A stretch of 47,369 nucleotides of DNA from positions 1 through 47,369 of IMG/VR virus record IMGVR_UViG_3300025009_000163; one strand, written 5' to 3'. Within the stretch, counting starts at the first letter, position 1. Every line of letters begins with the position of its first letter. The translations under genes were made by a program, and so were the position numbers. The stretch is from a virus. Below, one piece after another: positions 14,616 to 29,998 of the stretch. The notes beneath the pieces were generated by a model. That model was given only the letters and a program-made list of their open reading frames with translations, was not told where the DNA came from and ran no database searches.

Positions 14616-15878
14616 TCATAGCAGCGCCAGCACTCTCGCGGCAATTGCGGCGTGTCCTGCGGCGGTGGGGTGCAAGCCGTCAGTTGTTTCGTTCTGCGCA
14701 ATCCACGGGTCGGTATAGGTATCCCAGCAGGTAATGCCCTGTGCGGTACATGCGGCGGCAATCGCTGTGCGGATGTTGCCCTTTGCCACTTCTGCCCCTG
14801 CGGTCTGGTCTGCCCAACGGGGTAATACGTTCATGCCGTAAATTGTTGCTCGTGAATTTGACGCCTTGAGAGATGCTATCCCGGCTTCGTAAGTCGCCTG
14901 AAGCGTTGTCATATTTCCAGCATCATCGTCGTTTGTACCAAGTGCGATGATAATTACATCATCGTTATCGGATGCCGCTGCCGTTGATTGAGTCGCCATC
15001 TTTGAAATGACGCCCTCTCCGTTCCCGCTGTGGTTTATCATGCCGCATGAACCGGAGTCGTATTGTTGGCGCACCTTTGCCGTCCAATATACATCCCCTT
15101 TCTCGTTTAGCGTGATGCTGTCACCTAATATACCCATCCACTTGATTTTTGCTGTTGCGTCGGTTGCCAGCGTCCTGACCTCTGCCGCTGTTGCCTCACG
15201 GTTCAGTAGCACCACGTTGCTGATATAACCGTTCCATTTATAAGTAGCGGTACTGTAACCTCCTAATCTAGTGGTTGTCGATGCTAGACTGCCCGCCCAC
15301 GTGCCAAGCGTTGTTAATGCGGCTGTGTATAATGCACCGTTAATGTACAACCTTACCCTGTCGTTTGACGCTGACCATGTGATTGCTAGATGCTTCCATC
15401 CTGTCCCGTCAAGGTAGACTGTATCTGACTTCCACGTGCCCCCCGCCCGTTGCGCAAAAGAACAGTTGCGATCAGCGGAGTTGTTTCTTTGGAATACGAC
15501 TAGATTATTAGCATCGGCTTGCAGCCAAATAGCATAACGCTGTGTCGCATCTGTCCAAACGCCAGCATCAACGGGCTTTATCCATAACGACATCGTGCCC
15601 TCAGCGCCATTGAAAGCGGAGGCTAACGACGCGCTGTATAAATCCGTGTTGCTGTTACTCTCTGGATACAGTGGAGCAAACTTTCCACCGGGCGCTCCTG
15701 TACTTGCGGGAACCACGCCAGCGGTATGCGTACCGTTTCTACTGCTGCCGCTAACATCCTTCGCCACTGTCCCGCTCACTTCATCCAGCGGCCAGTATGC
15801 AATCAGGCTGTCCCTAAACATGCGCCTGATCTTCTGGTAATACGCCAACCCACCCGGCGCCATTGTCGTTTGCTTCAT
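14616..15878 (-). CDS. Virion protein with LamG-like lectin domain and SGNH esterase domain
   Basis: The 420-aa protein has two parts. Residues ~20-235 match a concanavalin/LamG-3-like jelly roll (LIAYWPLDEVSGTVAKDVSG at the start, GTMSLWIKP and DRVRLYINGALY inside). Residues ~245-420 carry all SGNH hydrolase blocks: GDSIT (nucleophile Ser), GNGEG, ALGTND and the C-terminal DGLHP catalytic Asp/His. Such enzymes remove O-acyl groups from glycans. Within the structural operon it is likely a virion glycan-binding deacylase acting on host surface polysaccharide, or on the phage's own glycan (inference). No signal peptide is seen. Confidence 0.82.
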   Translation of the reverse strand: MKQTTMAPGGLAYYQKIRRMFRDSLIAYWPLDEVSGTVAKDVSGSSRNGTHTAGVVPASTGAPGGKFAPLYPESNSNTDLYSASLASAFNGAEGTMSLWIKPVDAGVWTDATQRYAIWLQADANNLVVFQRNNSADRNCSFAQRAGGTWKSDTVYLDGTGWKHLAITWSASNDRVRLYINGALYTAALTTLGTWAGSLASTTTRLGGYSTATYKWNGYISNVVLLNREATAAEVRTLATDATAKIKWMGILGDSITLNEKGDVYWTAKVRQQYDSGSCGMINHSGNGEGVISKMATQSTAAASDNDDVIIIALGTNDDDAGNMTTLQATYEAGIASLKASNSRATIYGMNVLPRWADQTAGAEVAKGNIRTAIAAACTAQGITCWDTYTDPWIAQNETTDGLHPTAAGHAAIAARVLALL

Positions 15879-16320: not shown

Positions 16321-17016
16321 CTAAATTCGATAGACTAAAAAGTCCTGTGATAATTCCGCTTTCATCATCCCCATCCGCCGGGCTGCCGGTACTATGCCGT
16401 GCCAGCCTTTGACGATGGGGTTTGTTACCTCGTTGACGTTCACCGTTGCGTTCCATGTGTCTGCGCAGGTTTCAAATACGGCGGCGTATTCCGGCCGCTT
16501 TATCAGTTCGTTGAAGCTGCCTTGTTCCTTCCAGCGCTGTTCACCGGGGTAAGTAGCGAACCACTCCGCCACAAACTTGCGGGTCAATTCGGTATTGCGC
16601 CAGTAGGTAACGCCAACGTTGCAGTGCGCCGGTACGTTCAGCATCTTCAGGTATTCGCTCCTGGCGGGGTCGTGTACGCATGCGCCAAATTCGCCAACCG
16701 TCAGCGCTTCCGTCAGGTCGTGCTCGAAGTCCAGCACGGCGGCGTCAGCATCCACCCATGCCACAAACTCATACTCTGCTTCCAGCGCCCGGCGGATCAG
16801 TTCGATCTTGTCCCAGCCGCCGCCGATCATATCGGGGTAGACGCTCCCCATGATGTGCCAGTAGTCGTAGTTGTGCGAGCGTGCATAAGCCGCATGGCGC
16901 TGGTAGGTCAGCCGGAGCATGTCGTGCATGCAGCCGCTAAACCCGGCGTCAAATATTCCCGTACCGTCGACGGTCAAACAGGCTTGGATGATAAGTTTCT
17001 TGTTGGTGCGTTTCAT
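16321..17016 (-). CDS. GT-A type glycosyltransferase
   Basis: The 231-aa protein has a DxD-type motif in VAWVDADAAV near residue 88, preceded by GGGWDKIELIRRALE, resembling GMA12/MNN10 (GT34-like) galactosyl- or mannosyltransferases that use a metal-bound nucleotide sugar. HCNVGVTYWRN near residue 133 and the late KGWHGI motif fit the acceptor side. Its start overlaps the stop of the upstream GT-B enzyme as ATGA, so the pair is translated together next to the capsid genes. Confidence 0.75.
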   Translation of the reverse strand: MKRTNKKLIIQACLTVDGTGIFDAGFSGCMHDMLRLTYQRHAAYARSHNYDYWHIMGSVYPDMIGGGWDKIELIRRALEAEYEFVAWVDADAAVLDFEHDLTEALTVGEFGACVHDPARSEYLKMLNVPAHCNVGVTYWRNTELTRKFVAEWFATYPGEQRWKEQGSFNELIKRPEYAAVFETCADTWNATVNVNEVTNPIVKGWHGIVPAARRMGMMKAELSQDFLVYRI

Positions 17017-19034
17017 TTCAGCCCCCCTTCGATCTCAGTCAGCACGGGAGCCCAATATTTCGAAGTCACCGCGTCCACGTCGTACTCACTTTGTATGTAC
17101 TCAACCGTTTTCGCCGTGGGTGTGGCTTTGCGGTATTCAGCTTCCATGCACAGCTCAACCGGCCGGATATGCGGCCGGTACTGGAAGGCGGCCAGCGGCG
17201 TCCAGAATTTTTCAGCGTCCTTGCGGACAACCATGTGCCCGCTCAGGCACAGCTCACTCATGGCGGTCCAGTCGCCAACAATGACGGGAGTACCGCAATT
17301 GTGAACTAAGTACCCATTTGCTAAATAGGTACTTGATTCGGTTGTGAAGTTGTAGACGGGGAGATTCGTTACTGAGCGTCGTCCGATTTTGAGTATCGGC
17401 TCATATTCACCGTTCGTATCATCTGGACGATCTCCAGTTGACGAGGTGTGAACGGCTCGTTGTGTGATTGCGCTAACCTGAGTTCTGTAAATTCGATCAT
17501 CAGCTTCATCAATGGGCGCTTGATCGTTAGATACGGTTCTAGCGCCTTGTAAAGCGGAAGATGAGACAGCCCTTCGATATGGTACATGTAAGCCAGTCGC
17601 TTGATGCGATGCCGTCTGTGCTCCAGAAAGATAGACGGGCCTATCAACACTGATCCCAACCAGTCCATTAGTTCTATCGAGGTGCTGGCTATTCTGATAG
17701 ATGGCTTTAGTTTGTGCGATCTCATTGGGCGAACCGAGATTGTTCCCTCTCCGTCGATCAGTCCTGCGATATAGGCCAATTGCGTTGGTACTAGATTGCA
17801 CTCGTGTGGTAACTTGTAAGTCTCCATTGATTTCGTAAGACCCAAGCGGTGACGTTGCCATTGTAGCGACCCGAACGTTTTCCCCATTACTACTGCGATC
17901 TCTCGTAACGATTTCTTTTGGTAAAGACGAGACAATGTCTCCAATTCTTCCGGTGTGTATTTGTGGGAGTTTTTCTTCATAACTACTATTATACAACAAC
18001 CGGAGCGCACAATTCAAGTCTTTTGCTTGTATCCATCCCTTATCCGTCCAAAATGGGTGATTGGGAGTGGCTTCGATCATGCCGCGCTTTGTGTGTATTT
18101 GGACAAGATCTCCAGTGAAGTTTTTCACCATTCCACGAAACACACCTTTTGCTTCAACCTTTGTTTCTGCTGGAAAACACGCCTGCGCCTCAAGTATCGG
18201 GATACCAAAGCCCTCACCCGCTGATACCAGCATGTGCACGTCGAAGGCTGAATACAGCTTCGCCAGGTAGTCAGGCGGGTAGCCTAAATAGTTCTGGTAT
18301 GGGTTGCACAGTGCGTAGTCCTCACCTTCCTTCAGCCCGTAGCCTGTGAACACTTCGGGAATGTTGACTACATCGTTGCCGTGTTCGCCCCGGTCTGTTT
18401 GCAGGAAGTAAAAGGCGTCTGCGTGCCTTGCCTTGAAATTGGCGAAGGCTTCGATCATCTGCGTAAAGTTCTTGCGTGAAGGGTTGCCTTTGTTCATGGC
18501 AACGGTGCCAACGATCCACTTATCAGCGGGCAAGCCAAGTTCTTTTCTGCTCTCCGCTTTGTCGCGTGGGTAAAATATCTTTGTGTCGATGCCGTGTGGG
18601 ATGTAGTAGCAGTCAAGCCCCATCTGCTGAGTCATGCGCACGCCAAACTTGCTCATGGCGATACGCTTGTAAGCGTGGTTGAGTTTGTTGCGCACGATCT
18701 GCGGCATGGGCTCATGGTCAATAGGAAACCATGGACACCACTTGAAACCAAACGGATAGCCTTCCGGCTCCATCACCCACACGTCCATCAGGCTGATGGA
18801 GATGTCAGCGTTCCACGTCTGCGAGTGGCCGACAAATACATCGTTGCCGTAGGGGTGGAAGCGTTTGGGTAATATCGTGTAACCGTTGTAATTGAGTACC
18901 CCGCCCTCCAGCCCGTAATAGGCGCTGACGGCGAGCGGGTGCCCGAGTGCCTGGATGCGTGGTGCAAACAGGCCGGTTTGCTGTCCGTATCCGCTGTTAC
19001 TGAAAGGCGCGTTGGAGTGCCAAAGTATTCTCAT
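17013..19034 (-). CDS. GT-B glycosyltransferase interrupted by an intein
   Basis: The 673-aa precursor comprises a 285-residue N-extein, a 294-residue intein and a 94-residue C-extein, so the spliced enzyme is 379 aa. The N-extein has the GT4-like start (HSNAPFSNSGYGQQT), an IPHGID motif near residue 146 and the nucleotide-sugar-binding E-x7-E motif EGFGIPILE near 274-282. The intein sits four residues after this motif, at AQA/CGTPV. Conserved active-site positions are the usual home of inteins because precise loss kills the host gene only when imprecise. With the adjacent GT-A enzyme it probably transfers the sugars made by the late-operon sugar genes (inference). Confidence 0.85.
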   Translation of the reverse strand: MRILWHSNAPFSNSGYGQQTGLFAPRIQALGHPLAVSAYYGLEGGVLNYNGYTILPKRFHPYGNDVFVGHSQTWNADISISLMDVWVMEPEGYPFGFKWCPWFPIDHEPMPQIVRNKLNHAYKRIAMSKFGVRMTQQMGLDCYYIPHGIDTKIFYPRDKAESRKELGLPADKWIVGTVAMNKGNPSRKNFTQMIEAFANFKARHADAFYFLQTDRGEHGNDVVNIPEVFTGYGLKEGEDYALCNPYQNYLGYPPDYLAKLYSAFDVHMLVSAGEGFGIPILEAQACFPAETKVEAKGVFRGMVKNFTGDLVQIHTKRGMIEATPNHPFWTDKGWIQAKDLNCALRLLYNSSYEEKLPQIHTGRIGDIVSSLPKEIVTRDRSSNGENVRVATMATSPLGSYEINGDLQVTTRVQSSTNAIGLYRRTDRRRGNNLGSPNEIAQTKAIYQNSQHLDRTNGLVGISVDRPVYLSGAQTASHQATGLHVPYRRAVSSSALQGARTVSNDQAPIDEADDRIYRTQVSAITQRAVHTSSTGDRPDDTNGEYEPILKIGRRSVTNLPVYNFTTESSTYLANGYLVHNCGTPVIVGDWTAMSELCLSGHMVVRKDAEKFWTPLAAFQYRPHIRPVELCMEAEYRKATPTAKTVEYIQSEYDVDAVTSKYWAPVLTEIEGGLK
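17369..17980 (-). CDS. LAGLIDADG homing endonuclease nested out of frame inside the intein
   Basis: This 203-aa frame (from MKKNSHKYTPEELETL) lies wholly inside the intein, same strand, +1 frame relative to the glycosyltransferase. The N-terminus is a helix-turn-helix (LREIAVVMGKTFGSLQWQR). Near residue 75 stands LAYIAGLIDGEGTISV, a good LAGLIDADG motif with the catalytic acidic residue. The later LPLYKALEPYLTIKRPLMKL is typical of single-motif family members, which act as dimers. A longer frame reaches 18010, but ATG 17980 lies 8 bases after a TATAAT box. It should cut the intein-free allele and drive homing; activity is not shown. Confidence 0.85.
   Translation of the reverse strand: MKKNSHKYTPEELETLSRLYQKKSLREIAVVMGKTFGSLQWQRHRLGLTKSMETYKLPHECNLVPTQLAYIAGLIDGEGTISVRPMRSHKLKPSIRIASTSIELMDWLGSVLIGPSIFLEHRRHRIKRLAYMYHIEGLSHLPLYKALEPYLTIKRPLMKLMIEFTELRLAQSHNEPFTPRQLEIVQMIRTVNMSRYSKSDDAQ
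17988..18017 (-). promoter_or_regulatory. Internal promoter of the intein-nested endonuclease gene
   Basis: Read leftward, TTGAAT (18012-18017), an 18-base spacer and a perfect TATAAT (17988-17993) precede the ATG at 17980 by 7 bases. This is the same -10-to-ATG distance as at the other endonuclease gene (12481). It implies a leaderless mRNA, independent of the glycosyltransferase transcript. Confidence 0.7.
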
Positions 19035-21200: not shown

Positions 21201-22198
21201 TTCACCAAATCCTTTAGCGCTGCCTCTACATTCATCGAGCCATAAACCGCGTCATCAGTATGCACGGCTATATCGGTAAAGTTGAATTTGCCAGCCTTCC
21301 ACGCCTCATATTTGCCCTTCCCTAAAATCTGCTTTTGCATAGCCTCAGACTGCTGGCTGAACCATTCTTCACCTGTTTGGATAGTAAAGTCAGGGTTGAG
21401 AATTGTTCGGGGTAACATCGCGCAGCGGCCCGAATAATGGTCATCAAGTCGCTCGTCAACCGTGTGGAATGTCCCGTGCTTTGCAACGCAGGCCGGACAG
21501 GCACTTGGGAGATGTGCGAACCAGAACCAGCCTGTCACAATTTTATTGTTGGCGATATAGTTCGCCCTTGTCGCCTCACGATAACTCCACAATTGCACCG
21601 TCCTTGCCGTCCTCAGCGCATCGGTAAGCGTCATGCCCAGCTTGTCGCGCACAAGCGAAGCAGCCAGAACCTTCGGGTTGCGCCCGAGTGTGACATGCTC
21701 GATGATGGCTTGCGAGATGCGCCGGGCAGCTTCAGCGCCGTAACCGGACAGGCGGCGGAATAGCTCGCCTTCCGGTGACAGGAACGCCAGCAGGTTTTCA
21801 ACGACACGTGGGTTCAGCGACTGGATGTATGCCACAAGCCGCTTATCCCCTGCCACAAGTTCAGCAAGGATCGTGTTCACGTTCTGCCCCGCCAGCGCTA
21901 TCGCCTGTTTTGCGGTTGCGCTCAACTCGGTTTCGAGGTAGACGCTGTACTTTGTGACCTCACGCTCCACCCCGTCGATCAGGCTCTTGTACTGTGCCAG
22001 CTTGACCAGTTCGCCCTGACTGAGCGCCCCGGTCTGCTCAAGTTTCAGCGCCAACGCCTCGACCTTGCCGCGCAGGTTGTCGTATGCGCCCATGTAGGCA
22101 TCGATCAGGCGGGCAAGCGTGGCGGTGTCTTTCGAGGCAAGCGCCCGCTGGAATTTCTCAACCAGTTCGATGATGTTCAGTCCGGGTGCGTCAGTCAT
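21197..22198 (-). CDS. Phage head morphogenesis protein (MuF / SPP1 gp7-like)
   Basis: The 333-aa protein is helical in its first 200 residues. It then carries the MuF-family core: TARTVQLWSYREATRANYIA, a CPACVAKHG pair near residue 240 and the HYSGRCAMLPR motif near 258. The family sits in the head beside the portal and may be ejected with DNA. It normally follows the portal directly; here ten kilobases of sugar genes separate them. Confidence 0.88.
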   Translation of the reverse strand: MTDAPGLNIIELVEKFQRALASKDTATLARLIDAYMGAYDNLRGKVEALALKLEQTGALSQGELVKLAQYKSLIDGVEREVTKYSVYLETELSATAKQAIALAGQNVNTILAELVAGDKRLVAYIQSLNPRVVENLLAFLSPEGELFRRLSGYGAEAARRISQAIIEHVTLGRNPKVLAASLVRDKLGMTLTDALRTARTVQLWSYREATRANYIANNKIVTGWFWFAHLPSACPACVAKHGTFHTVDERLDDHYSGRCAMLPRTILNPDFTIQTGEEWFSQQSEAMQKQILGKGKYEAWKAGKFNFTDIAVHTDDAVYGSMNVEAALKDLVK

Positions 22199-23354
22199 CG
22201 TTACCCCATTTCATCAACTCATCCAGATCGGGTATTGGAGGCGTCATTTCTTGCATCGGTGTCTTGATAAACTCGTTGTTCACCATGCGGTTTACCACCT
22301 TCGGGAATTGCTCATACTTCGGGTCGATCATCAATTCGAGGATGAACGGAGATGAGCCTGTAAAATACGGGCTGTTGAGGAACAGCTCCACATCGGCGGC
22401 AGTGTAGGCTACGCTGGACTGGATCCCAAACGCATCCGCCAACCCGCCGTAGTCTGTGCCACGGTCTGCGATACGCGGCAGCGTCAGCCCGCTGTCCCTG
22501 TCACACGCCACATGGAAGCCGCCAAACCTGGCGTTCTGCATGTTGCGGATACTGGCATAACCGTTGTTGTTGTAGACGAAAAACTTGATCGGCAGGTTCA
22601 GGCGGCGTATTACCTCAAGCTCTTGCACGTTGAGCATAAAGCCGCCATCACCTGTTGCGCAAAGCGTGCGGTTTCCCCCTGCTAGGCACGCACCTATAGC
22701 CATGGGTATGTCAGCGCCCATCAGCCCCATCGTACCGGCGTTGACGAAGCGCTGCCCCCGTTTGATCTTGAAGGCTTGCAGAAACGTATTCGGAGCCGTG
22801 CCGGATGAGCCCATTGCGAGGATGTCGGTGGGTTGGGCGTGGTCACTGAGTAAACTGATAAAGCGGAACGGGTCGACAAACTTTGGGTTGTCCACGCCGT
22901 CCAGTTCAGGCCGGAAGCGGGCGTAGAGCGCACGGCACCAGGTGAGCCAGGCGGGGTCAACTGGATCGTTATTCTGTACCTTCAACTTTGATAAATTAAA
23001 TTTGCCTTTTAGAAATCTATCGGGCAATTTATCCAGTTCAGCCTGGTCAATGTCAAGAACAGACACAAGTCCGTTGGATACAAAGTTCTCGTAACTGAAC
23101 GCTACTTGCTGTTCGTCTAACCGCGCACCATAACAATACAAAACATCCGCCTTCTGCTGGATGATATTCGCAGCCCGCATACCCGACACGCCCGGTCTGC
23201 CGCAGAATACAGGGCTATCTTCGGGCACAAGATCCACAGCCGCCCACGTGGTCAGTACGGGGATGCGTAGTGAACATAAAAATTCAACGAGGACAGGGTT
23301 ACAACGGCAGCCATTACCTATGAGGATGACGGGGTTATACATTGAACACCACAT
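22191..23354 (-). CDS. YerE/acetolactate synthase-like ThDP enzyme, C-terminal subunit
   Basis: The up to 387-aa product (start at 23354, or MYNPVIL at 23342) carries the central domain (NPVILIGNGCRCNP...VLTTWAAVDLVPED) and the C-terminal thiamine-diphosphate domain. The latter has GDGGFMLN, ~25 residues and VYNNNGY, the GDG-x-NN metal/ThDP motif. The N-terminal PYR domain, with the catalytic Glu, is in a separate gene (23553-24080). In Yersinia the single-chain homologue YerE adds a two-carbon unit to a CDP-3,6-dideoxy-4-ketohexose. The other sugar genes here make that role more likely than amino-acid synthesis. Confidence 0.8.
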   Translation of the reverse strand: MWCSMYNPVILIGNGCRCNPVLVEFLCSLRIPVLTTWAAVDLVPEDSPVFCGRPGVSGMRAANIIQQKADVLYCYGARLDEQQVAFSYENFVSNGLVSVLDIDQAELDKLPDRFLKGKFNLSKLKVQNNDPVDPAWLTWCRALYARFRPELDGVDNPKFVDPFRFISLLSDHAQPTDILAMGSSGTAPNTFLQAFKIKRGQRFVNAGTMGLMGADIPMAIGACLAGGNRTLCATGDGGFMLNVQELEVIRRLNLPIKFFVYNNNGYASIRNMQNARFGGFHVACDRDSGLTLPRIADRGTDYGGLADAFGIQSSVAYTAADVELFLNSPYFTGSSPFILELMIDPKYEQFPKVVNRMVNNEFIKTPMQEMTPPIPDLDELMKWGNDD

Positions 23355-28111: not shown

Positions 28112-28823
28112 AACTCTCCTTGACATATCGCTCTACGGCTTCTTCAAACGGCGTCCATACCTGGCAGCCCAATTCCATCTGTGCCCGCTCGATGTGCGGG
28201 ATGTAGTAGGGGCGCTGTTCACGGCGGGGCGGGAGAAATTGGATCTTCGGGCTGTGCGGGAAATAGCGCCTTATCTCAACCGCCATACGGATGATACTCA
28301 CGGGTAAGTCACTACCCACGTCAAAGATGCTGCAAGGGTCAGCGTCCCGTAATATCTTCCACATCCAGCGCCCCAGGTCTTGCCCGTACAGGTAGCTGCG
28401 CATGACCGAACCGTCGCCGTTGATGCAGATCGGCAGTCCGTCCACGCACGCACGCAGGAAGCGGGCCGGTGCCAGGTGCGGAGCAAGCCCACGCCCCACA
28501 AAGCTGAACAGGCGGGCGATGCGCACATCCAGCCCACTGGTCAGCAGTGCGTTCTCATCCCGGCGCTTGCCCTTGCCGTACTCGTCAGCCTGTAAGTCAT
28601 ATACCGCCCCTGATGATGCATACAGCACACGCGCATCGCTCTTGAGCGCGCACTCGATCACCTCATCAACAGGGATGGGGGCAAGGTGGACTATGGCGTC
28701 CCATTTCTGTTTGAGTGCGGCAGGATACGTTTTTGTGGAGGCAAAAGTAATATCCCCAACAGGCGGGTCGTTTGCCATCCACTGACCGACAAAGCCTGTG
28801 CCGCCGGTAACAAGTATTTTCAT
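28101..28823 (-). CDS. NAD(P)-dependent sugar epimerase/C4-reductase
   Basis: This 240-aa short-chain dehydrogenase of the extended family has GGTGFVG at residues 7-13 (Rossmann dinucleotide site). LYASSGAVYD supplies the catalytic Ser, and Y82-x3-K86 is the catalytic pair. It is shorter than typical epimerases. Placed after the E1 and 4,6-dehydratase genes it resembles the C4-ketoreductase that ends deoxysugar pathways (YerF- or AbeA-like role, inferred). The start overlaps the E1 stop (ATGA). Confidence 0.75.
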   Translation of the reverse strand: MKILVTGGTGFVGQWMANDPPVGDITFASTKTYPAALKQKWDAIVHLAPIPVDEVIECALKSDARVLYASSGAVYDLQADEYGKGKRRDENALLTSGLDVRIARLFSFVGRGLAPHLAPARFLRACVDGLPICINGDGSVMRSYLYGQDLGRWMWKILRDADPCSIFDVGSDLPVSIIRMAVEIRRYFPHSPKIQFLPPRREQRPYYIPHIERAQMELGCQVWTPFEEAVERYVKESYEN

Positions 28824-29998
28824 GCGTTATTCCTCACATACTCGTATATTTGGTCAATTGCGAAATTGAGATGCTGTTCTTCCAAGCCTGGCCACACCCC
28901 TATCCACAATCCCCGCTCGTGGATAATATCTGTGTTGGTCAATTCCTCGGCAAGCCGGAAGTCGCTCATGCTGAACGCCTTTTGCCGGATCAGGTTGCCG
29001 CCCATCATGGGACGGCTGCCCACGCCCTTGCTGTCGAGGTAGCGTGCTAACCCGTTGCGGTTGACGTTCTCACCGCACAGCAGGGCATACCCGAACCAAC
29101 TCACGGTGTGGTTGATGTTCTGCGCCGGGAGCGTAAACCAGCGTTCCAACCCCAGCTCATGCGCCCTTGATGCAAGGTGCATGTGGTTGGCTCTGCGGGT
29201 GGAGATAAAGTTTTCCAGCCGGTTCAGTTGTGCTACGCCGATAGCCGCTAATATGTCAGGCATTTTCAGGTTGTAGCCGGGGTAGCTGTAGCAATACTTG
29301 TGGTCATAGTCTCCATCAAACCTATGCCCACAGGCGTTATCCTGTCCCGGATCGCAGTAGCAGGAGCGCCCCCAATCACGCATCGATCTTATCTTGCGGG
29401 CATAGTTGGGGTTGTCGGTCAGCACCATCCCGCCTTCCCATGTCGTGATGTGATGGGCGCTGTAAAACGACAGGGTTGAGATATGCCCGAACGAACCTGT
29501 TCTGTGCCCGCCTATCTTGCTGCCGAGTCCATCACAGTTATCTTCGATGAGTATGATATTCCGCTCATCGCACAGCTTGCGTAGCCGGTCAGCCGGGAAC
29601 GGGTAGCCTAATGTATGCGCCAGCACAATGGCTTTCGTTTGGCGGGTGAGCGCCTTCTTGACCTGCTCGAAGGTTGGCACAAAGCCGTCCAGTGACACGT
29701 CGATGAATACCGGCTTTGCTCCACACTGGAGGATGGGCGCCAGCGTGGTGGGGAAGTTGAGCGCCGTGGTCAGCACCTCATCACCGGGGTTGAGTACCGC
29801 CGCACACACCAGCAGGTTGGCAGATGAGCCGCTGTTGACGGGGATGCCGTAGCGCATACCGAGATAGCTTGCCAGTATGCGCCCGAACTCGGCGGTGATA
29901 TGCCCGGATGACGAATTGCTCATCCAGTCCACGAGCGCACGCGAGGCGGCTTCCAGTTCTTCGATGCCGACGACTTTACCAGAGGGGAGGACTTTCAA
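28820..29998 (-). CDS. CDP-4-keto-6-deoxyglucose 3-dehydratase, E1 (RfbH/DdhC-like)
   Basis: The 392-aa protein of the DegT/DnrJ/EryC1 fold shows the two hallmarks of E1. The PLP-binding Lys is replaced by His (SFYSAHHITTWEGG, His182). A Cys cluster CYCDPGQDNACGHRF (Cys213, 215, 223) with a further Cys near 236 holds the [2Fe-2S] cluster. E1 removes the C3 hydroxyl of the 4-keto-6-deoxyhexose using PMP, and needs the flavoprotein reductase E3, which is not in this window. TTG 29998 overlaps the dehydratase stop (TTGA). Confidence 0.88.
   Translation of the reverse strand: MKVLPSGKVVGIEELEAASRALVDWMSNSSSGHITAEFGRILASYLGMRYGIPVNSGSSANLLVCAAVLNPGDEVLTTALNFPTTLAPILQCGAKPVFIDVSLDGFVPTFEQVKKALTRQTKAIVLAHTLGYPFPADRLRKLCDERNIILIEDNCDGLGSKIGGHRTGSFGHISTLSFYSAHHITTWEGGMVLTDNPNYARKIRSMRDWGRSCYCDPGQDNACGHRFDGDYDHKYCYSYPGYNLKMPDILAAIGVAQLNRLENFISTRRANHMHLASRAHELGLERWFTLPAQNINHTVSWFGYALLCGENVNRNGLARYLDSKGVGSRPMMGGNLIRQKAFSMSDFRLAEELTNTDIIHERGLWIGVWPGLEEQHLNFAIDQIYEYVRNNA

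Follow-up and report, generated by a model that had tools for sequence, protein, structure and literature searches.

A putative LAGLIDADG homing endonuclease gene encoded out of frame within the intein of a phage glycosyltransferase

A glycosyltransferase gene of the window, which designates here the whole stretch of DNA analysed (the 47,369-base IMG/VR virus record IMGVR_UViG_3300025009_000163), very probably harbors a class-1-like mini-intein whose spacer contains, in the +1 frame, a homing gene of the free-standing type combining a helix-turn-helix (HTH) and a LAGLIDADG domain. The original prediction, made from this single sequence, placed splicing and homing in two frames of one DNA segment. 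At the sequence level, this view is now supported by six viral contigs and by the avoidance of stops in the intein frame. It is further supported by a shift in codon-position divergence, by the predicted folds, which are separate for the two products, and by phylogenetic signs of mobility. The features discussed below are collected in Table 1.

Table 1. Positions of the features in the window and of related nuclease reading frames in other contigs (positions without a contig name refer to the window)
Feature	Position	Strand	Remarks
N-extein of GT4 glycosyltransferase	18180..19034	-	residues 1-285, ends IPILEAQA
Intein C1...VHN294	17298..18179	-	294 codons, in glycosyltransferase frame; +1 extein residue Cys
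N-terminal splicing half, residues 1-65	17985..18179	-	block A CFPAETKV, block B ATPNHPFWT
C-terminal splicing half, ~residues 264-294	17298..17390	-	blocks F and G, LPVYNFTT...YLANGYLVHN/C
C-extein of glycosyltransferase (CGTPVIVGDWTAMSEL...)	17013..17297	-	aligned with Mae-JY09, other phage glycosyltransferases and L012
Candidate -35 box TTGAAT	18012..18017	-	18 bp from -10; consensus match only
Candidate -10 box TATAAT	17988..17993	-	7 nt before nested ATG; consensus match only
Nested homing endonuclease gene (putative), +1 frame	17369..17980	-	203 codons + stop, ATG start; alternative upstream GTG at 18010
N-terminal helix-turn-helix of nested protein	17843..17953	-	~residues 10-46; model helices 10-20, 25-32, 36-46
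Dual-coded stretch, intein-frame HTGRIGDIV and start of nested HTH	17931..17957	-	conserved in relatives
Single LAGLIDADG motif YIAGLIDGEGTIS of nested protein	17735..17773	-	alignments
GDSL-lipase/LamG protein	14616-15878
GMA12/MNN10-like glycosyltransferase	16321-17016
TPP-enzyme	22191-23354
DegT aminotransferase	28820-29998
Antisense Zn-ribbon + DUF559/Vsr-like nuclease	L175:3865-4746, L178:2584-3477, L190:4235-5122, L186:4241-5248, L181:4082-4972	-
Antisense HTH + MTES_1575-like ORF	L008:3049-3921, L177:1085-1882, L180:4049-4888	-	MuF head gene in L008

The window contains phage structural genes, such as an SPP1-type portal. The gene that hosts the intein encodes a GT4 family glycosyltransferase and forms one uninterrupted open reading frame of 673 aa (17013-19034, minus strand); the boundaries predicted for this frame and for the intein proved exact. 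The N-extein matches Pfam Glycos_transf_1/Glyco_trans_1_4 below threshold and phrog_2170 at 7.5e-30, and after the intein the glycosyltransferase resumes with CGTPVIVG. Intein-free homologs are found in the Microcystis phage Mae-JY09 (47% identity) and in the IMG/VR contig L012 (66%). Because both of them read EAQACG straight through the empty site (EAQA/CG), the insertion of the intein is exact. The window also encodes a GDSL-lipase/LamG protein, a second, GMA12/MNN10-like glycosyltransferase, a TPP-enzyme and a DegT aminotransferase, which suggest a sugar-modification gene set.

By the sequence features tested, the element is an intein, class-1-like, but not a canonical bifunctional one. It begins with CFPAETKV and ends with YLVHN, with TPNH in block B and a terminal His-Asn followed by Cys. 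The NCBIfam model intein_Cterm matches it above its cut-off, and its profile matches in the PDB are intein/Hint chains. The Pfam family Intein_splicing (PF14890) aligns with residues 7-294 at an E of 1.3e-5, below the curated cut-off; among the related inteins introduced below, the match is under the Pfam cut-off in L092 and L173, unlisted for L236 and L237, and above it for L240. The AlphaFold model of the intein frame has an overall pLDDT of 44.9 and reaches confident values at its two ends alone (residues 1-65 and 264-294). By 10-residue block, the pLDDT reaches 75-84 in the N-terminal splicing half and 65-82 in the C-terminal half, and it stays below 50 in the spacer (residues 66-263), which is predicted to be disordered. 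The termini of this model are beta-rich (pLDDT 65-84), and its top Foldseek matches are all inteins (best E 0.008, none reaching 0.001). As had been claimed, the glycosyltransferase frame is devoid of an endonuclease motif: profile searches found no LAGLIDADG match in this frame of the window.

The LAGLIDADG protein announced for the +1 frame was recovered as a product of 203 aa matching phrog_5046 at 5e-16 and, over residues 2-52, the HTH family phrog_323 at 4e-7. Its Pfam LAGLIDADG_3 match is sub-threshold. A profile built from its homologs matches I-MsoI and I-CreI of the PDB, with an E of 1.6e-32 for the best chain (I-MsoI), and the same two enzymes are the top Foldseek matches of its AlphaFold model (pLDDT 84.2, pTM 0.75). 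In alignments, Y70, A72, G73, L74 and D76-G79 are invariant or nearly so. Judged by its motif and its predicted fold, the nested protein is a single-motif LAGLIDADG endonuclease of the I-CreI/I-MsoI type. Its relatives in sequenced phages of Streptomyces, Caulobacter and Sphingobium are separate genes. The observation that about 200 codons stay open in two frames was also borne out. Within the intein, the other sense frame carries 27 stops and the antisense frames carry 12-15, and the double-open stretch is therefore peculiar to the intein/+1 pair. The nested gene had further been described as filling exactly the endonuclease slot. It does lie between the splicing halves, but it exceeds the spacer: its first ~20 codons overlay residues that are conserved in the intein frame (IG[DE][IV]V), and the nested gene of L173 reaches intein codon 295 of 304, with its 3' end over splicing block F.

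A search for homologs with the same out-of-phase LAGLIDADG frame, as originally advised, gave five further viral contigs with the same relative frame. They were found by alignment-based scans of viral contigs; single-sequence pattern searches of such contigs with the proteins of the window found nothing. The layout is thus present in at least six divergent viral contigs (the window, L092, L173, L236, L237 and L240), with the endonuclease in the +1 frame in all of them and spanning 203-227 codons. In L092, L173, L236 and L237, the intein occupies the same glycosyltransferase codon as in the window; the host gene of L240 is unrelated and encodes a DUF2201 metallopeptidase/VWA protein. Cys1, the block B His, the terminal His-Asn and a +1 Cys or Ser are kept in the six members. 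The first position of the block B TxxH is Thr in five and Ser in L240, and the C-terminus reads VHN/C in five and VHN/S in L240. All six nested proteins share an unchanged acidic motif, DGEG. Host-gene GC varies from 0.36 to 0.67 across the members, and the overlap is AT-rich in L173 (GC 0.40) and L240 (0.36). Downstream of its intein-bearing glycosyltransferase, L173 also has a second, free-standing LAGLIDADG gene with a C-terminal HTH (L173:5352-5897). Among 233 endonuclease-like ORFs of the loci analysed, the sole other same-strand nestings within a long host ORF were those of L146 and L235, which were rejected, both being GC-rich and showing no intein motifs by eye; L006, L098, L152 and L248 display antisense overlaps only.

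The distribution of the element points to mobility. In a tree of 83 phage glycosyltransferases, obtained by a quick search and in which L237 is a long branch, the five intein-bearing enzymes need 5 changes, of which at least 4 are forced by well-supported branches; each of the four with a resolved sister adjoins an intein-free glycosyltransferase. The nested proteins are 39-50% identical, versus 32-42% for the exteins, and the endonuclease identity is the higher one in 9 of the 10 pairs. This scattered distribution, together with nested proteins that are usually more alike than the exteins, indicates that the intein-endonuclease unit moved horizontally. The GC of the overlap, far below that of the host gene in L236 (0.50 vs 0.66) and L237 (0.52 vs 0.67), suggests a foreign origin. 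A recent homing event was not caught, the closest pair of intein-bearing and intein-free sequences being 66% identical. These results bear on the possibility that the nested protein is expressed without being a homing enzyme, for example as a domesticated DNA-binding regulator or a degenerating remnant. The presence of the HTH and the mostly sub-threshold Pfam LAGLIDADG matches would agree with such a role. The invariance of DGEG, a fold matching active meganucleases, a frame that is intact in the six members and under purifying selection, and the patchy distribution all argue for a homing enzyme and leave this first alternative with a low probability.

Within the overlap, divergence follows the codons of the nested protein. 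Its third positions, which are the first positions of the intein frame, diverge most (0.637, that is ~64% among the five glycosyltransferase members), versus 0.422 and 0.364 at the other two, the lower value being that of the second position, equivalent to the intein-frame third. In the exteins and in the non-overlapping N-terminal intein segment, the most divergent positions are the host-frame thirds. The nested protein is therefore the main target of selection in the overlap. The conservation of the intein frame itself was compared with a null in which the nested proteins were fixed and their codons resampled without stops. Over the whole overlap, it was modest in two pairs (z 2.4-2.7) and not above the null for window-L092 (z 1.0), the signal residing mainly at the edges: intein-frame similarity exceeded the null in the first ~20 codons of three pairs (z 2.3-3.8) and in the last 20 codons of L092-L173 (z 2.7). 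On account of this excess, and of the L173 nested gene extending over block F, the edges are considered doubly constrained. The central intein frame, as far as these sequence comparisons indicate, mostly needs only the absence of stops.

That the central intein frame is conserved little beyond what the nested protein forces could also be expected from a real homing gene lodged in a tolerant site, with a stop-free translation retained in the host protein, vestigial Hint motifs and no splicing. Such insertions exist in phages. Indeed, ShiLan, a hidden out-of-frame HNH endonuclease of phage DNA methylases, is devoid of splicing motifs, and its retention in the protein is predicted; leaderless initiation was proposed for it (Arsenault, Gosselin and Gogarten, 2025, PMC11855218). 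For the present family, this second alternative is unlikely, a little more so than the first. The residues listed above for splicing (Cys1, block B His, His-Asn and +1 Cys/Ser) are retained in six of six members, and the splicing halves of the window are better conserved than what lies between them: the N half is 42-50% identical to those of L092 and L173, and the short C piece 56-71%, versus ~23% for the spacer. Moreover, a retained insert of ~290 residues splitting the conserved EAQA/CG of the glycosyltransferase would probably be damaging.

The requirement for a stop-free intein frame can be followed codon by codon. A nested codon ending in T creates a stop in the intein frame when it precedes AA, AG or GA, and this T is always avoidable by synonymous choice. 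In the six members, 0 of the 234 nested codons followed by AA, AG or GA end in T, versus 204 of 709 at the other positions of the same genes (Fisher 1.8e-29); the members are related, with nested proteins at most 50% identical, and the events are not fully independent. When only contexts with the same next first base were considered, in three members, the counts were 0/107 vs 28/148 (1.3e-7). Synonymous resampling, which for the window held the nested protein fixed and used the codon usage of the phage, left the intein frame stop-free in 1 of 20,000 trials for the window and in none of 20,000 for either L092 or L173. The intein frame is visibly kept open by selection against stops. An origin by chance or error, either an in-frame LAGLIDADG intein thrown out of phase by a pair of errors (of sequencing or frameshift type) that compensate each other, or a frame left open by accident, can invoke the overlapping frames that GC-rich DNA yields by chance, such as those of the unrelated L146 and L235 in the scan, but is very improbable in view of these figures, of the same phase in six contigs including the AT-rich L173 and L240, and of a nested protein that starts with its own Met and HTH and not as a Hint continuation; compensating errors in particular are excluded because the relatives, rather than having one frame broken, keep both open in the same phase.

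The original prediction also credited the nested gene with its own TATAAT box. The hexamer is indeed present and a promoter is plausible in the window and in L237, but it is not significant in the other four members, where a strong shared promoter had been expected. The best sigma70 score of the window is 10/12, and the window (0.0065) and L237 (0.0165) are the only members whose full sigma70-like score is rarely reached when synonymous codons are resampled. In three members (the window, L092 and L237), the nested ATG is preceded, at a distance of exactly 7 nt, by TATAAT or TATACT, a spacing that would fit a leaderless mRNA; the -10 hexamer doubles as Tyr-Asn/Thr codons common to the glycosyltransferase inteins. 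A convincing Shine-Dalgarno sequence is found only in L173, where AGGAGG, a perfect match, precedes the nested ATG by 5 nt, and in L236, with a good GAGGGG. From these signals, a separate start for the nested gene is plausible, not proven.

For a mini-intein with a homing gene nested in its spacer, the following mechanism can be proposed. Translation of the glycosyltransferase frame would produce a Hint domain interrupted by ~200 disordered residues, which would fold from both ends and splice out. Translation of the +1 frame would proceed from an internal start, for which the leaderless-type -10 spacing in three members and the Shine-Dalgarno sequences in two are candidates, and would yield the endonuclease as a separate protein. 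The endonuclease would then dimerise and cut intein-free alleles at or near EAQA/CG, and repair of the cut allele would copy the whole intein. As to the origin of the element, a mini-intein most likely captured a free-standing endonuclease gene, the stops being purged later. We infer the splicing, cleavage, target site and expression of the window element from its sequence.

Textbook inteins are two-in-one proteins in which splicing and homing are fused in frame. The window element shares with canonical bifunctional inteins the blocks A, B, F and G, a conserved host codon and, at the DNA level, a LAGLIDADG sequence between the splicing halves. It differs from them by a nuclease in the +1 frame with its own start and stop, of the single-motif (homodimer), free-standing type with an HTH, and expected as a separate protein. 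The group I introns of I-CreI and I-MsoI are also comparable, since the same endonuclease family is encoded there by a gene located inside a self-removing element and translated separately. Unlike these introns, the window element would be removed at the protein level, and its DNA must therefore encode two proteins at once. In fractured genes, reportedly described by Dassa et al. in 2009, a Vsr-like endonuclease of the free-standing kind is lodged between the two parts of a split intein. A homing gene of the free-standing type between two intein halves is common to both arrangements, but a fractured host gene is broken into two ORFs. The glycosyltransferase of the window keeps its 673 codons in one ORF, since the intein frame runs through the nested gene without meeting a stop.

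ShiLan and the window element are both phage insertions that are stop-free in the frame of the host gene, carry an endonuclease in another frame and show a patchy distribution. The nuclease is HNH, and the splicing domain missing, in ShiLan; the window element has a LAGLIDADG nuclease, splicing blocks, matches to intein profiles and a host frame that is partly constrained. Given these published out-of-frame HNH insertions (PMC11855218), the earlier statement that no described family with this layout was known was too strong. The same article cites 'Non-canonical inteins' (Gorbalenya 1998) and Gosselin et al., 'Actinobacteriophage inteins ... non-canonical architecture' (bioRxiv 2025.01.02.630785), for overlapping reading frames, and both may for this reason hold a precedent. 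A search of the open literature returned no other description of the layout, ShiLan being the closest among the published cases compared.

The layout is not unique to LAGLIDADG enzymes either, as related phage inteins, which were recovered with the same intein profile, show a similar one that involves another nuclease family. A DUF559/MTES_1575/Vsr-type nuclease ORF occupies the +1 sense frame in L182 (L182:4116-4682), L183 (L183:4095-4739) and L184 (L184:4134-4775), where stop avoidance in the intein frame is complete (0/110 vs 112/367, 2e-15). Antisense nuclease ORFs are found in the inteins of L008, L175, L177, L178, L180, L181, L186 and L190, L181 having been read by eye. The DUF559 match is above the Pfam cut-off for L175, L178, L182, L183, L184, L186 and L190, and weaker for L008, L177 and L180. 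Avoidance of antisense TTA, CTA and TCA is convincing only in the AT-rich L190 (4e-6), the others being individually weak. The record of the Gordonia phage Fosterous lists, at the locus of the hidden nuclease, no gene other than the head gene. In addition, the RadA-like gene of the L240 phage (L315:1117-3009) has an intein that, by eye, apparently carries an EDxHD-type nuclease in frame, apparently similar to the DUF559/Vsr-type ones.

A stop-free spacer is all that a mini-intein needs, and a nuclease gene can therefore be accommodated there in a different frame or on the opposite strand. In the light of the out-of-frame DUF559/Vsr-type nucleases of related inteins, the window element becomes one instance of a possibly broader strategy. 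It is likely that frame-decoupled inteins form a general and repeatedly evolved class in phages, made of a LAGLIDADG lineage and of sense and antisense Vsr/DUF559 lineages. As part of this reading, the LAGLIDADG type of the window would represent one lineage, which spread across glycosyltransferases and into an unrelated gene.

The two functions of the element are apparently separate proteins made from the same bases, and the endonuclease could thus be produced without the precursor. The splicing domain could evolve on its own, although the two functions would still be moved together, as one DNA segment. The arrangement suggests how an intein can acquire another endonuclease with no need for an exact fusion in frame, and it provides a natural case of dual coding maintained by selection. 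Some phage inteins that seem to be free of an endonuclease may likewise hide a nuclease in another frame, where ordinary annotation misses it.
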